A DNA stretch of 64,000 nucleotides from the NCBI GenBank assembly GCA_947168725.1, contig CAMVNA010000001.1, positions 62,001 through 126,000 on the forward strand, given 5' to 3'. Source of the DNA: an uncultured bacterium. Its GTDB lineage: Bacteria; Patescibacteriota; Gracilibacteria; Absconditabacterales; Absconditicoccaceae. Made by a program: the position numbers and the translations under genes. The number at the start of each line of letters is the position of its first letter. Position 1 is the first letter of the stretch. Below, piece after piece: positions 25,668 to 62,097 of the stretch. The notes under the pieces were generated by a model. It made no database searches and was not told the DNA's origin. It saw only the letters and a list, made by a program, of their open reading frames with translations.

Positions 25668-25755
25668 GTCATTCTGAGCATCAGCGAAGAATCCAGGGCA
25701 ACCGATTTAACCTCTCTGAATTCTTCGACTTCACTTCGTTCGTCTTTGAATGATA
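25668..25755. repeat. Dispersed repeat family A, copy 1 (inverted pair)
   Basis: GTCATTCTGAGCATCAGCGAAGAATCC followed about 35 bp later by a diverged inverse arm GAATTCTTCGACTTCACTTCGTTCGTC. Same core as the copies at 28 kb and 34 kb. Confidence 0.75.
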
Positions 25756-26098: not shown

Positions 26099-26551
26099 AT
26101 GATTGAACATCCATGAATCGAATTACAAGTTCTTATCAAGGAAAAATGACTTACTCAAAAAGCTTTTTCTTCTATTTTGTGAAAAAAAGTTAGTGAAGTT
26201 AATGAGCTTTTAAAATGAAAAAGAAATATCACAATTCAGCGAGATTATTTATTACATCAAACTCTATGAACTCCAATTAAATACCGGATTTTGAAGCAAG
26301 TTGATTATGATTATTCATTATTAGATATCGAAGAAAAAAAACCTCTCCCAATAGAAGAAGGCCAGAATGAAATTTCTGAAAATCATGACGTTCTGGATGA
26401 CAACAAAGAATCTACTAAAATTTCTCCCCTTGATAAAGGGGATTCAGCAAAACAGAGAGAATTTGAATCACAAAAAACTCCAACTCAAGAACAAAACCAA
26501 AAAGATGATGAAGACTTCAAAAAAAGAGCCAGAATTTTTAAATCTTTCTAA
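26099..26551 (+). CDS. Orphan HigA/XRE-family DNA-binding protein
   Basis: 150 aa. Residues 1-70 follow the HigA antitoxin pattern: HPGIELQVLIKEKGLTQKAFSSILGKKVSEVNELLKGKR, then ITIQRDYLLHQTLGTPIKY, a helix-turn-helix with the HPGxxL entry. Residues 75-150 are acidic, disordered and low in complexity. Part of this tail (around residue 111) is translated from a CCCCTTGATAAAGGGG palindrome of the repeat family found elsewhere in the window. There is no HigB toxin on either side. The core glycines are UGA while the repeat-derived tail uses GGN. The palindromes upstream suggest it represses its own promoter. Confidence 0.75.
26430..26448. repeat. Family B palindrome inside the HigA-like gene
   Basis: CCCCTTGATAAAGGGG, a 6-7 bp stem within the coding sequence, translated in frame as part of the acidic tail. 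Confidence 0.55.
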
Positions 26552-26555
26552 AAAT

Positions 26556-26643
26556 TACCCCCCTTTCATAAAGGGAACACGCCATGGCTGAGAGAGATTT
26601 AACTCCTCAGTCGCAAGCGACAATCCCACTTGAAAGTGGGGCA
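26556..26643. repeat. Palindromic repeat family B, copy with three hairpins
   Basis: CCCCTTTCATAAAGGG, then GTCGCAAGCGAC, then CCCACTTGAAAGTGGG: three small stem-loops in 88 bp, between the HigA-like gene and rsmA. Confidence 0.65.
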
Positions 26644-28049: not shown

Positions 28050-28079
28050 AAAAAGCCCCACAATTGTGGGACTTTTTTA
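28050..28079 (+). terminator. Terminator after the 153-aa protein gene
   Basis: CCCACAATTGTGGG stem flanked by AAAAG and CTTTTTT, 15 bp after the stop. Confidence 0.8.
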
Positions 28080-28081
28080 TT

Positions 28082-28132
28082 CTTGTCATTCTGAACATTA
28101 TATTGTCATTCTGAGCGTTAGCGAAGAATCTT
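28082..28132. repeat. Dispersed repeat family A, copies left of the GIY-YIG gene
   Basis: A short TTGTCATTCTGAAC copy, then TTGTCATTCTGAGCGTTAGCGAAGAATCTTGG, directly after the terminator and just beyond the stop codon of the minus-strand GIY-YIG gene. Confidence 0.75.
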
Positions 28133-28139
28133 GGGCGTA

Positions 28140-28430
28140 TTATCTTCGATTGCTACTTAAATCATTCCATTCCTCATTATTTTCTTCTATCAATAATATC
28201 TTTTTTTCTCTTTTTCATCATTTTATTACTTTTTCATATTGTATAGCCTCTATAATTGTAGGAAATTCTTGAAACCACACCAATTTATGGACACAATATT
28301 TTTTTGTAAATCAATCAAATATTCACTGCTTATGCTGTAAAATTCTTTGTTCAATGTTGCTTGTAACTCAAGTATACAAAACTCATCATTTTCTCGATGC
28401 TAAAATATAAACATATCATCCCTTTTCCAT
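28140..28430 (-). CDS. GIY-YIG endonuclease, UvrC N-terminal/YhbQ-like
   Basis: 96 aa. GGYVYILASRKGGVLYTGVTSNIEQRILQHKQG gives the GIY-YIG core (here YVY and YTG) with the catalytic Arg of the R-x-x-x-H helix. YCVHKLVWFQEFPTIIEAIQYEKVIKG supplies the second half with the metal-binding Glu. This is the stand-alone single-domain form. Inverted copies of repeat family A lie on both sides (28098-28130 and 28460-28496). That suggests the gene and its flanks may be one mobile unit or that the nuclease acts on the repeat. Many of its glycines are UGA. Confidence 0.85.
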
Positions 28431-28459
28431 AAATTATATTTTTAGATAAAACATACAAG

Positions 28460-28496
28460 ATTCTTCACTCCATTTCATTCCGTTCAGAATGACCCT
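28460..28496. repeat. Dispersed repeat family A, copy right of the GIY-YIG gene (inverted)
   Basis: AAGATTCTTCACTCCATTTCATTCCGTTCAGAATGACCC, the reverse complement of the family core, facing the copy at 28098-28130. Confidence 0.75.
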
Positions 28497-29853
28497 ATTT
28501 AGTATACTCCACTTTTGATCCAACTCTAATCTCCTCTCCATCAAAACATTGAATTATATTTTCCAAATTTACTTCATCTATTGGATCTATCTCTGGACAA
28601 TTAATTTCTGGACGAATAGAAAGGAAAATCTGACCACTTAACTGATCTATACTCTCTACAAATCCAATCTGATTTTTTCACTTTCTTCTAGCTTCTCTTG
28701 ATTTTAAGAGATTATAAACCTGTTTACGAATTATACTGAAACGCTTATGAATAGTACTGTATGGAATCTTGTTTTCAAATGATGAAGATAGAGCTAAAGG
28801 TTCATCGTGATATTCAAAAATAGCAACATTATCGAAATAATCCTCATCCAGAAATGATTGCAAAAGCTGCATATCCTCGTTTGTTTCTCCTGGAAATCAG
28901 ATTATGATATTTGTACGAATGAATGCTTTTGGAAATAATTTACGGATTCACTTCAGTAATGTATGTATCATTTTATCATCGTAAAAACGCCCCATTGATT
29001 TGAGTAATTTTGGAGAAATATGCTGTAAAGGAATATCAAAATATGGAATAAATTTCTCTAATGTGGCAAATTCTTCGAGTTGTTTTAGAGTTAGAATGTC
29101 TGGATACAAATACAAAATACGATATTTGAAATCATATGGAAGCTTGTCTAATTCATGAAGTAATGGTAAAAGTTGAGATTTTGAAGAAAAATCTGTACCA
29201 TATCTCATTGTATCTTGTGCAACTATAATCAATTCTTCTATTCATTGTTTGAGTAAATTTTCTGCTTCTGAAAGAACAGATTTAATTGGCAGGGAAGTTA
29301 ATTTTCATCTGATTTGTGGAATTATACAGAATGCACAGGAGTTATTACATCACTCTGCAATTTTAAGATATTCATAACGATTCTCATAATTTGTGAGCAG
29401 TCTTGGCGCTGAATATCGACAAAAATCTTCAAATCTTTGGCTACGTTTTGTTAGGCTTTCTATATTTGCAAAAGTTAGGTCATTTCGTGAAAGATAGGAA
29501 ATGTTTTCATTTTTTAATAAATTTTCTCGCTTATCTAATTCTGACTTATACGCATTATCAAGAACATTTTTTGATTTTAATACTTTCTCAAAATACTGAA
29601 CTCAACATCCAATTAAACATATTTTCTTTTTTTTCTTAAGTATTTTGTTTATCGTTTGGAACATTTCTTCACGACCAGAAGAAATAAATCCACACGTATT
29701 GAGTAAAACTATTTCTACCGCCGAATCATAAGGATCGGAATAATATTCTATCTTATCTGAATTTTCACTCAAAAGTTTTCATAAAAACAATTGGCTGTCT
29801 ACCAAATTTTTATTACATCATAAATTTATCATAGAAAGATGTACCTTTTTCAT
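28495..29853 (-). CDS. rimO: Ribosomal protein S12 methylthiotransferase
   Basis: 452 aa. The N-terminal UPF0004 domain has MINLGCNKNLVDSQLFLG with its first Cys, then LNTCGFI. The radical-SAM cluster motif is EGCNNSCAFCIIPQIRG (CxxxCxxC, around residues 168-176). YPDILT and FIRTNIIIGFPGET follow, and a TRAM domain closes the protein. The GCxKNLVDS start separates RimO from MiaB. It adds a methylthio group to an Asp of S12 (rpsL at 14.3 kb). The 3' end overlaps the edge of a family A repeat. Its start lies 1 bp after the stop of the large upstream gene. Confidence 0.93.
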
Positions 29854-29854
29854 T

Positions 29855-32800
29855 CTATTCATTCAGCGACAAAAAATTTAAATCAGGCTCTTGAACTAAT
29901 GATTTATTGTATTTATCTTGAAATTGAAGTAAAGCCCAATTTATTTCTTCAGGAATTGAAGATTGAATTTTTGATATAAGATATTCTTTGGAATCCAGTT
30001 CATATTTATCAGAAAAAAGTGAAATAATATCATTAACTGGGATTATTTTTCAACCCCGCTCAAATTGATAATTTCATGATTTTATGGTCTTTTTAGCAGA
30101 AGAATATAAATCAAAATATTCTTTTAATTTTGAATTATAATACAGCATAGAATAGTTATTTTTTAAGTATTTCTGAATCTCTGCTATGTAAGAATTCTGC
30201 ATTGAAAGGAGTTTTTTATTCTTTTCTGTCGTAGAATTTGGAATACTTTTACATGAAAATAGAGTTTTATTATATGAAACACAAAGTTTGTCTCATTTTT
30301 TTACCAATGTGATTTTCTTCACGATTGCAAGTTCTTCTGCTGGAATTTCACGAACAGATGTATTGTTTGAATTAAATCTCATTCAATCAGGCGCTTTTCA
30401 GTAGCAGAATTTATCCAGTTCTGCTCACTGATACAATAATGAAACACACGATGCCGAATTTGGCAAAGAAAACGATCATTTAATTATGATATTTTGGTTT
30501 GGAATCAGATTTCAGACTAGTTTCTTTTTAGTTTTATCATTTATAAGCAAAGAAAAATCTGGGCTTAAATTAAGCATTTTTAGAGATTCTGGAAAGTCTT
30601 CTGATGGCGTTCGCTGTAATGTGATTTCTTCTTTTCAGCTATCTTTTCATGATGGATTTGGAATTATAGATTGGATTTTCACATTCGGAAATGATGATGA
30701 AACTTGTCATGAAAATACCAATTCTTCGTCCGAAGTTAGTCCATTTGGATTGTAACATCGTGTATCGAATGTATAACTTCATTGATTAAGGCTAACACAT
30801 GTAGCACGGTTATTTGGTAGTCAGAAATTTCATTTTAAAGTAATTTCTTGAGATTCTGAAAGGTCAAAAAGTCAGAATTCTGATAATTTTTTGCTTTTCG
30901 TAGTTCATGTAGCATATTCACTTCGTGGGAAAATTGTCAGACTAAAATCATCAGAGAAATCAATGGAACTAACTGTGGAAACCTGTGAGTTGTCGACACT
31001 GAGTTGGACAATTTCATTTCACGAATCCGTTCCATTTGGATCATAAATCACATTGGAAATTTTGATAGATAGTTTCTCGTAATCTATTCCCCAAGCTTCT
31101 GGTTCTTCTTCTATAGATTTTCCACATATTGCAGAAGATCGAAGTCATTTTTCAGACTTTTTAGCGTTTTCTTCAGCTTGTTTGAAAGCTGATTGCTGTG
31201 AATATGCTGTTTTGTAAGTATATTCTTTAGCGTATCATTCGGCTATGAGTGTTTCATTTACAAGTTTTCAATCTAAATAAACATATGCAAGCATTCTACC
31301 ATAAGCATCAGATTGAGCTGAATTAGAGTCGAAATCAAGTGTAACGTACTGATTTTTGATTAGATTTGTTAGATAATTTTTCGCTTCTTTTCAAAAACAT
31401 TCTGTGCTGCGATAACGAGCTGTATTAGATTCAGGAGCATCTACTCCAAGCAAACGGACAGATTGTAAACTTCAGTCTTCTTTACGATAGCGGAAAGTAT
31501 CTCCATCTATGACTGAATAGACTTTCACGACTCAGTCTGGAATTTCCATTTTTGGTTTATTTGGATTATAGGTATAAGTCGAGAAAATATGGTTATCATA
31601 GAATAAAATTACCACTACATCTGAATTGTCTTTCGTGGAATTTGGAAATCCAAAACTTCATTTTAGAGTGATAGTTGAATATGGCTCGAGAATTCATGTT
31701 ATTTTTTTATTGGTAGCATTGACTTTCATTTTAATTTTGGAAAGGTCTAGCGATTTGGATGATTTTGACTGAATTGTTATCGTTTCATTTCCTGAATCGC
31801 TTCATTCTGGATCGTAGTCTATATGAGTAATAGAAATCTGATAATCTGATGGATTGAAATTATCAACCTCTTGCTTTTCTTTTTCATCTTGAGTTTTGTC
31901 TGAGGAATAACAATAAGAGTCTAGCTGATTTTCTCATGAATAAAGGTAAACACATGCTCATGCATCAACAAATCAGAATGATTTAGTAAATGTATCGATA
32001 GTATTTGAATAAAGAATTCCATCTATGTATTTTTTTGTAGTTGCTGTAGAGGTTTTTAAGTAATAATTGTGATTTTTGAAATCAATATCGTATGGAAGAA
32101 ATGATTGTAAAGTGATAGATTCTGGACTTTTTGGCTCTAATGAAACTATTTTTATAGCTTGTCATTTTGGAGTTTCTTGCCCCCCTTCGGTAAGGGGGGT
32201 AGGGGGGATTTCTTGTGTATCTCATGTATTAAATCCCTCCGCCTCCCCATTCGTTACCTCATGGTCGGCACCTCCCTTATCAAAGGGAGTCTTTTGACTA
32301 CCTCCTGTTTGGACAACATTTCATATCTCAGTTCAACAAAGTTCATCTTTACTTGGACATGAACATCCACCTCATCATCATACATATTTTACGGTCTCAA
32401 TTATTTTTTCGTTATATTGTGATGTTACAGAAAAATATTTTAAAGCTGACTCATCGAATCCTGGCGAAAAATCCATCACGTTGTCCATATTATCTCCACA
32501 GTTATGTTCGAAACCATCGTGATAATTTGACTTTTCTAACGATCAAGTTGTAATTTTTACGATGTCCAAAACTTGTCTACTTTGTCCATCTATTCCATAC
32601 AATTCCAGTTCTCAACTAAAAGAATTAAAATTTAAATCTGGATGCAATACAATGGTTATCAGTCCTGCTTCTGTTAGATCTCAATCTTTTGTTGTCAAAA
32701 TCAGCCTTGTATTTTTTTGTAATTTTTCTCTATCATAAGTTTCTGTTTCCCTATCTAAGTCCATGATTATTGGCTGCGTAAGTAGACTTCATGAAAGTAA

Positions 32801-34285
32801 TAATGAATCGTATTCATACTCAATATCTTCATGGATAGAAAACTCCACATAAGGATCATATCTGCTTCATCATCGGAAAACTTCACTGATTGTAATTATA
32901 TCTTCGTGAACATTTGAACAGTCAGCTATTGGAGAATCGTCTTCCTGTAGAGAGTCTTCTGGCGATATTCCGTAATCAATTATTTCATCTGCGTATGTAT
33001 ATAAAATTCATGGATTAGCTGAATTGTATGTATCTTCTGAAAGATTTGCATCATCGTTTGAAATTGATCGTGTAATAACAGGTCCATTTTGGGTTAAAAT
33101 TTTATGGAACGATACTCCATAATCATCCCTTTTGTTTACTCGATATTCATGTGCAAAAAATCAGTCAATTTGTTGTCATGAAAGAAGTAAAGAAATCTGA
33201 ATTTCTTGGTCGTCTGGAATAAAAAACTCTGGAAACCCTCCTTCATTGAGCAAAATATTTACATTTCAATCATGCATGGAAGAAAAATCAAACATTTCGT
33301 TTGAATCAGCAATAATTAAAAAATCGTTTGCTGGAATTTGTATATTTTGGTAAATATAATTTTTATTGTCTGAAAATATATTTCAGGAAAGTGTTAAATC
33401 TCAAAGAAAATCTCAGTTTCAAATATTAAAAATTTCTATCCATTCATCGTCATCGTCGTAAAAGACTTCAGAAATTATTAGATTAAAATCTGAATTTTCT
33501 CATGTATTGTCTCATGTTCATTGTAAATTTCAAGTTCAAGGATTTTCTCAATTTGATGGTCAATCTCATTCCCACGGATTTCAACTTTTTATAACTAATT
33601 TTCACGGATTGGCTACAAATCACGTAATATTGAAGATATCATCCATCGTTGTTATCTGAACCTCTCGTCAATTATCGTAAATTTTCTGAAAACTTGGACG
33701 AGGATTTTTGTTTTTATTTTGATTTACTGTAGTTTCATCTACTTCAAAAGAATCGATTATATCTCATGCATATTGCAATTCTATATATATTCCTTTTCCA
33801 TCTGTAATTGAAATATTTTTAGGATAAACTGAAAAAGTTTCTCAATTTATCATTCATATATCTTCTGAACTGGTAATAATAATTGATTGATAACTTTGAA
33901 TATTAACATCTGAATATAAAATATTTCATCTATTATTTGCTCCTAAAAATGTCAAAGTTCCGTTAAATTCTTCATCTGAAAGATTTGTAATTTCTATCCA
34001 TTCTGAACTTCATAATCGATATACTTCTGTAATCTTTAAATTTGGTAAATATAGTTCTTCTTGTCATTCTGAGCGAAGCCAAGAATCTTGTGTATTTTTC
34101 TCGTCATTCTGAACCAAAGGTGAAGAATCCATAGGGGTATTACTTTCTAAATCCTTCACTTCGCTTTCGCTCGTTCTAGATAGCAATTCTTCGGGACTTA
34201 TATCTAATTCACCAGCAATACTTAAATTAAAAATAAGCGGAAAAAAGGCTAATCGTACGGAAACGATTAAGCGTAACGTTTTCAT
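29855..34285 (-). CDS. Giant exported lamin-tail / staphylococcal-nuclease protein
   Basis: 1476 aa; the frame was checked line by line and carries no TAA or TAG. Residues 1-25 look like a signal peptide. Several lamin-tail-like (LTD) beta domains follow, with motifs such as LKITEVYRLGSSEWIEITNLSD, DWIEIFNI and EIPDDQE. A thermonuclease domain at about residues 910-1065 carries VYSVIDGDTFRY, SVRLLGVDAPES, DAYGRMLAYVYL and LVNETLIAEGYAKEY, with the catalytic Arg/Asp pattern intact. More LTD-like domains follow to the C-terminus. The protein is probably surface-bound or secreted and degrades external DNA, perhaps for nucleotide supply. Dispersed repeats are translated in frame at residues about 30-74 and 663-707. 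Confidence 0.85.
32181..32300. repeat. Palindromic repeat family B inserted in frame in the giant LTD/nuclease gene
   Basis: CCCCCCTTCGGTAAGGGGGGTAGGGGGGATTTC on one side and CCTCCCTTATCAAAGGGAG on the other, about 120 bp apart outer to outer. It is GC-rich against an AT-rich host, keeps the frame, and is read as a Gly/Pro/Thr-rich linker (TPFDKGG ... PPTPLTEGG). Confidence 0.8.
34064..34195. repeat. Dispersed repeat family A cluster inside the giant LTD/nuclease gene
   Basis: GTCATTCTGAGCGAAGCCAAGAATC and GTCATTCTGAACCAAAGGTGAAGAATCC in tandem, then CACTTCGCTTTCGCTCGTTCTAG. All are translated in frame just after the signal peptide (residues about 30-74). Confidence 0.75.
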
Positions 34286-61065: not shown

Positions 61066-62097
61066 TTAGATGGAAACGGCACCCTTGATACTGTCATCGT
61101 GTTCATATCCAATAAGTTCAACATCATCCCAAGTGAAATCTAGGATGTTGTTTATGTCTGGATTTAAACGGATAGATGGTAGAGGGTGAGGTGTGCGATT
61201 TAACTGCTTTACTACTTGATCAATATGATTCAAATAGATGTGGGCATCTCCGAAGAAATGGTTGAATCGGCCAGGTTTACGACCTGTTACTTGTGCCATC
61301 ATACACAGGAATAAAGCATCCTGAGCTGTATTGTACGGCACTCCGAGGAATGTATCACAGCTACGTTGGTAGAGGTTCAAGTGAAGCATACTCGGCTCGT
61401 TCGCAAAGAACTGATAGAGGCACGGGCACGGTGGTAGAAGAGTTTTTTCTACATCTTGAGGATTCCAAAGAGAAATGATAATTCTACGACTTTCTGGATT
61501 ATTAATGATTAAATTAATAGCATCCATGAGTTGGTCTTTTCCCTTGATGAACGGATATTTTAAAGGTCTACCCATTCCATAAAGAGTTTCTTTCATTTTT
61601 GCATCTAAATCATCAAATTTAACTTCTCCAAAACGACGGAATTGATGTCCATAGGTTAGACCTAAGTCACCCCACTTTTCACAGAAAGTATCATTTGATA
61701 GGATTCTTTCCTCAAATTGTTTGATCCTTCTTTTCCACCAGTCTGTGTAGTCAGATTTCTCATTATCTTTCCACATGTTATTTAGCAGTTTTGTTTGGCC
61801 GGTCTGTTGTAACCAGTATTTGAACGGCCATTCTGTCCAAATGTGGTTGTTGTGTTCTATGAGAAAACGGATGTTCGTATCTCCTCTAAGTTTCCAAATA
61901 AGTTCTTCAAAAACAGATTTGAGACTCATACGTTTTGTAGTCAGAAGAGGAAAATTGTGAATTATTCCTTCTTCATCTTGGTGCATTTCGCACGTGTAAT
62001 GGTATCCAGGTAGTGTGTAGGTGCCAGTACCAGTGCGATCATCAGTTTTTACGCCATTATCCAAGATGGCTTTAAGCAATGATAAATACTGTTTCAT
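61066..62097 (-). CDS. thyA: Thymidylate synthase
   Basis: 343 aa. DRTGTGTYTLPGY, the FEELIWKLRGDTN folate region, the RRFGE segment, the catalytic Cys in LPPCPCLYQFF (around residue 222; the usual PPCH is PPCP here), RSCDTFLGVPYN and FGDAHIYLNH match ThyA. Makes dTMP from dUMP. All 20 glycines are GGN and no in-frame TGA occurs, unlike every other large gene in the window. It also has higher GC. This points to recent acquisition from an organism using the standard code. Confidence 0.93.
   Translation of the reverse strand: MKQYLSLLKAILDNGVKTDDRTGTGTYTLPGYHYTCEMHQDEEGIIHNFPLLTTKRMSLKSVFEELIWKLRGDTNIRFLIEHNNHIWTEWPFKYWLQQTGQTKLLNNMWKDNEKSDYTDWWKRRIKQFEERILSNDTFCEKWGDLGLTYGHQFRRFGEVKFDDLDAKMKETLYGMGRPLKYPFIKGKDQLMDAINLIINNPESRRIIISLWNPQDVEKTLLPPCPCLYQFFANEPSMLHLNLYQRSCDTFLGVPYNTAQDALFLCMMAQVTGRKPGRFNHFFGDAHIYLNHIDQVVKQLNRTPHPLPSIRLNPDINNILDFTWDDVELIGYEHDDSIKGAVSI

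Follow-up and report, generated by a model that had tools for sequence, protein, structure and literature searches.

A GIY-YIG nuclease gene between inverted REP sequences as a candidate autonomous REP element

The window analysed here is a stretch of 64,000 nucleotides, and in it a unit of 389 bp (28105-28493) lies in a short gap whose neighbours are a RimO/MiaB-like gene and, on the other side, a small conserved ORF that has its own terminator. A terminator-like hairpin, AAAAAGCCCCACAATTGTGGGACTTTTT (28050-28077), lies just upstream of the unit and is also present in the genomes G151 and G244. Inside the unit is a GIY-YIG endonuclease gene (28140-28430, minus strand) of 96 amino acids; the code 11 reading of this interval is broken by eight TGA codons, whereas the code 25 reading, with TGA as glycine, is open. 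The protein matched PF01541 in a Pfam search (E=2.7e-16), and Y8, Y19, G21, R29, H33, E66 and N85 are invariant among 27 relatives, a set that includes residues expected of the GIY-YIG active site. The AlphaFold2 model of the protein has a pLDDT of 86.8, and the PDB fold nearest to the modelled nuclease is UPF0213 BH0048 (1zg2), followed by Slx1. Since the PF01541 domain is accompanied by the catalytic Tyr, Tyr, Arg and Glu, the predicted protein can be placed in the GIY-YIG nuclease superfamily. The host genome (1.07 Mb) uses code 25 (Gracilibacteria/SR1-type), and the second GIY-YIG protein detected in it is of the UvrC type; no others were found.

On both sides of the gene lies a repeat of the form GTCATTCTGAGC-n-GCGAAGAATCTTG, in inverted orientation and with the GTC end away from the gene. 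The left REP, GTCATTCTGAGCGTTAGCGAAGAATCT (28105-28131, plus strand), has its GTC tag outward and its tail TTGGGCGTA abutting the stop of the gene, and shows 0 mismatches to the repeat pattern, with 0.00 such matches expected in shuffles. The right REP, GTCATTCTGAACGGAATGAAATGGAGTGAAGAATCT (28458-28493, minus strand), also has its tag outward and ends in the tail TTGTATGTTTTAT; its middle is longer than that of the left REP, and the two agree at their outer (GTCATTCTGA) and inner (GAAGAATCTTG) ends. The original prediction placed the nuclease exactly between inverted repeats, within 28082-28496, and this is borne out by gaps of 8 bp from the gene stop to the left REP and 27 bp from the gene start to the right REP, the coordinates being consistent with the unit found. 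A truncated extra REP head, GTCATTCTGAACA (28085-28104, plus strand; direct repeat D2), precedes the left REP, and a further copy, GTCATTCTGAGCATCAGCGAAGAATCC (25668-25694, plus strand), has no adjoining nuclease gene. Two more REP heads (34063 and 34103, spanning 34063-34131) are in frame inside an ORF of 1476 amino acids (29855-34285), where they encode the peptide MDSSPLVQNDEKNTQDSWLRSEGQ and form an in-frame REP dimer in the N-terminal part. Copies of a second palindromic repeat family, with CCCCTTGATAAAGGGG and CCCCCTTTCATAAAGGG types and the peptide PPTPLTEGG, are dispersed through the window, some of them within ORFs (approximately 26423-26440, 26555-26575 and 32159-32443).

Di Nocera et al. 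(2013, PMC3733652) define CGTC-tagged REPs by a GTC tag, a stem that begins with AT, a tail resembling CCA and an arrangement in inverted dimers, and the repeats flanking the nuclease genes match this superfamily. The unpaired C/TGTC that marks one end of these repeats is present in the window as TGTC (28104-28107). Instead of a stem of 8-9 bp with AT at its first two positions and a CCA tail, the window REP has an interrupted stem of 5 bp, tandem G-A mismatches and 2 bp, closed by a four-base loop, and its tail is TTG; the 8-9 bp AT-starting stem with a CCA tail is present at many homologous loci. The geneless inverted dimers, with spacers of 17-66 bp, show the inverted (HH) arrangement of CGTC REPs, for which spacers of 20-100 bp are described. 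The window REP is thus a loose member of the CGTC-tagged REPs. The lone left REP is weakly foldable (z=-0.98), and hairpin stability of the single window REP was therefore dropped as evidence; a geneless dimer of 89 nt folds well (z=-4.0).

We compared the flanks of related genes by reverse-complementing the right flank and aligning the left flank to it, with a score of at least 28 taken as positive; the controls were 1984 windows of equal spacing taken from these loci. An inverted flanking pair was found at 73% of 79 relatives from named genomes of many phyla compared to 1.3% of controls (p=3e-33), and the remaining 27% show no clear pair; in the class set, 53 of the 84 genes have one. Among the positive loci are members of Pseudomonadota, Bacteroidota, Campylobacterota, Melainabacteria, Planctomycetota, Armatimonadota, Coriobacteriales, Omnitrophota, Chloroflexota, delta-type bacteria, LCP-89 and Patescibacteria, and the pairing of gene and repeat was seen in at least 10 bacterial phyla. 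In a scan that counts only repeats with a GTC tag, REP density was 4.41 per kb within 300 bp of the gene and 0.51 per kb beyond 1 kb (8.7-fold). In the same scan, tags pointed outward in 286 cases and inward in 114, and 95 of the 286 outward REPs end at most 30 bp from the gene. When the tag was not required for selection, GTC[AG][TC] was still found in 93 of 110 strong inverted pairs. Across 288 genomes, a strong gene match occurred in 22 of 38 repeat-positive and 37 of 250 repeat-negative genomes (Fisher p=4e-8), and gene and repeat also co-occur inside the family (p=0.002). In the genomes G177 and G244 the geneless element has 22 and 27 matches, respectively, but no close gene is present, and so persistence of the repeat needs no present gene. 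The expectation that GIY-YIG genes elsewhere would be flanked by the repeat was therefore confirmed, and the expectation that the repeat would track the gene holds in the co-occurrence counts but fails in these two genomes.

Several loci have arrangements of their own. At L161 (G134:C11:34418-34732), a tandem array of about 97 bp with four REP copies adjoins a GIY-YIG gene. At L160, 550 bp separate two GIY-YIG genes (G134:C14:60407-60682 and 61232-61504), and a TCATTGCGAGC REP stands before each of them; a duplication of the unit is possible. At L016 and L168 (G175), GIY-YIG genes are flanked by another inverted repeat, beginning GGATCAAGCGGAAAAT, which has no GTC tag.

The stem sequence of the REPs varies widely from gene to gene, and this variation follows the protein. 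Between genomes, mean REP similarity rises from 0.29 at less than 50% protein identity to 0.65 at more than 70%, and the correlation of protein identity with REP similarity (Mantel r=0.26) exceeds the maximum of 0.11 reached in 2000 permutations, while outer flank sequence is flat against protein identity in the same comparison. When paralogues within one genome were compared, 26 of 36 had a REP more similar to the one beside their nearest foreign relative than to the REPs of the remaining copies in that genome (p=5e-4); the pairs in these co-variation analyses are partly non-independent, so that the p-values are indicative. The genome G134 has 13 TCATTGCGAGC repeats, and such repeats adjoin two of the nuclease genes there; seven congeners have 0 of them. 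In G151, one paralogue (G151:C2:19187-19474) lies between TTAGGTGT-tailed REPs and the other (G151:C4:27069-27344) is flanked by CCA-tailed ones; this genome also has geneless dimers with either kind of tail. These results show that REP stem sequence tracks the protein and not the genome. Predicting one repeat type from the mere presence of some GIY-YIG gene was rejected as too blunt, because the repeat type differs by gene.

Copies without the gene were located with a consensus of geneless dimers, and full-length copies of 88 bp were found in the host genome (G000), G151, G177 and G244. Both ends of the 389-bp unit match the halves of this element: consensus positions 1-35 correspond to window 28105-28139 (94%) and 41-88 to 28446-28493 (83%), so that the window gene occupies the spacer between the two halves of the dimer. 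The gene-bearing unit and the 88-bp copies share terminal inverted repeats, which is the relation of an autonomous partner to a MITE. The closest homologue of the nuclease (77% identical) is in the congener G151 at another site, after comM, where REP dimers form an array around it; in G000 and G177 the orthologous comM site contains neither repeat nor gene. At the window's own site, G244 and G151 have geneless REP pairs, as read directly from the raw sequences of the site since a three-way alignment placed the gene poorly. Taken together, the presence of repeats and gene at comM in G151, their absence there from G000 and G177, and the geneless pairs at the window site in G244 and G151 show that both the unit and the gene are gained and lost between species; the species compared differ by about 15%, a distance at which no target-site duplication is definable. 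The spacer of the geneless pair in G244 (L219:3900-4010) contains a repeat similar to the second palindromic family. REP dimers are also in frame inside the RimO/MiaB-like gene of G151 and G244 (L218:1383-2810 and L219:4058-5500), and the window copy of this gene (28495-29862) is without the dimer; such in-frame dimers within genes are reminiscent of Rickettsia RPEs.

We consider it probable that the unit is an autonomous REP element, in which two outward-tagged CGTC-type REPs flank the gene of a nuclease that is specific for them and cuts the REP, and host repair spreads the unit. The recurrence of the pairing in at least 10 phyla suggests that these repeats, for which no mover is known, are acted on and possibly spread by the nuclease. 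A REP that becomes single-stranded, as on the lagging strand or in DNA entering the cell, would fold into a small hairpin; the nuclease would bind this hairpin and, close to the GTC tag, nick it; host repair would then copy or rejoin the released or broken unit elsewhere, with the gene or, more often, as the two ends alone in the form of a MITE-like dimer of about 88 bp. Because GIY-YIG enzymes are DNA hydrolases, we infer nicking of the hairpin and spread by host repair, a spread that the nuclease rather than another enzyme would drive. To our knowledge, a strand-transfer step is not known for GIY-YIG enzymes, and with such hydrolytic chemistry reinsertion is left unexplained by the preferred model. 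The main observation that the autonomous-element model has to absorb is that G177 and G244 keep their repeats although no close gene is present; these repeats may be non-autonomous relics, or the gene may have been lost. The weak folding of the single left REP and the 27% of loci with no clear pair also count against this model. The original prediction had likened the locus to REP palindromes and RAYT transposases and had proposed it as a possible autonomous element. The latter idea and the analogy both hold up, with a widespread and specific association, geneless derivatives and insertion polymorphism, but the RAYT mechanism is not simply transferable to hydrolytic enzymes.

A different account, which we regard as unlikely though deserving serious attention, is that this is an Ssn-type module: a site-specific single-stranded DNA nuclease with recognition repeats around its gene and others, which shapes DNA uptake and recombination. 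Repeats and gene would then move not by transposition but through transformation and through homologous exchange between one repeat and another. In the Ssn family, GIY-YIG homologues reportedly cut single-stranded DNA at repeats around their genes, as Chenal et al. are said to have described in Nat Commun in 2025, and Ssn/NTS of Neisseria is said to modulate transformation. The same kind of small GIY-YIG protein has cognate repeats here, gain or loss of the gene within an existing dimer at the window site fits exchange between repeats, and Neisseria dRS3 is in CGTC-1 (PMC3733652). Homologous exchange leaves unexplained the repeats and gene at comM, a site that is repeat-free in two relatives. 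Homing is improbable in our judgement; here the gene would enter REP dimers that already exist, with the nuclease cutting the geneless form and repair copying the gene in, and the dimers would spread otherwise. It agrees with the geneless pairs at the window's site in congeners and with the position of the gene in the dimer spacer, but gene loss from the unit would give the same picture, and the Y1 search revealed no enzyme for spreading the dimers themselves. We give very little credence to mobilisation of the REPs by RAYT/Y1 transposases with the GIY-YIG gene as a passenger. REP/RAYT systems are a precedent and Y1 proteins are present in G251 and G177, but no match to the Y1 transposase (PF01797) was found in G000, whose assembly lacks roughly 9%, and none was found in G134, G144, G151 or G244, which disfavours a RAYT origin in the window genome; furthermore, the 2013 survey recorded no RAYT flanked by CGTC REPs (PMC3733652). 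Chance bracketing by common repeats, for which the handful of copies in the genome might speak in a single case, is the least credible account of all and is refuted by the control rate and by the tracking of protein by repeat type.

Recognition of cognate repeats by the Ssn nuclease family has probably already been published. Among the papers searched, none links GIY-YIG with REP, dRS3 or bacterial MITEs, and the transposon-like anatomy and the CGTC-REP link appear new; we found no description of the CGTC REP identity of the repeats, of the relation between autonomous unit and MITE, of the empty sites or of a quantitative co-variation. CGTC REPs, which are widespread bacterial repeats, here gain a specific, co-varying protein partner in many phyla, including code-25 CPR bacteria, and this partner makes their spread testable. 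Unlike GTAG REPs, CGTC REPs were reported to lack a dedicated transposase (PMC3733652), and we tentatively propose, with somewhat less than even confidence, that the mobilising enzymes missing from the whole superfamily, across bacterial phyla, are GIY-YIG nucleases. If true, this would be a class of minimal transposable element, and the hydrolytic nuclease driving it would have a fold with no known role in bacterial transposition. The many natural nuclease-target pairs also offer a means of reading out a specificity code.

Among known systems, UPF0213 proteins (BH0048, 1zg2) and Slx1 have the fold and catalytic domain of the window nuclease; they differ in that we know of no repeat association for them, whereas the window nuclease is repeat-flanked. 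CGTC REPs have in common with the nuclease-flanking repeats the GTC tag, the AT/AT stem start, the short CCA-type tail, the inverted dimers and the spread over several phyla, and they include R. conorii RPE-4/6 and Neisseria dRS3; they differ in that the 2013 survey found no mobilising gene and in that the window stem is interrupted and its tail is TTG. The Ssn family is alike in its small stand-alone GIY-YIG protein, the cognate repeat around the gene and the many homologues of differing specificity, and in the window family, too, the cognate repeat flanks the gene and the repeat type follows the protein. It differs in the compactness of the window unit, a gene with two outward REPs that has geneless derivatives and shows insertion polymorphism. 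The REP/RAYT REPtrons likewise have a nuclease gene between inverted REPs and scattered non-autonomous dimers, but whereas REPtrons carry an HUH Y1 tyrosine transposase, the window unit carries a GIY-YIG hydrolase.
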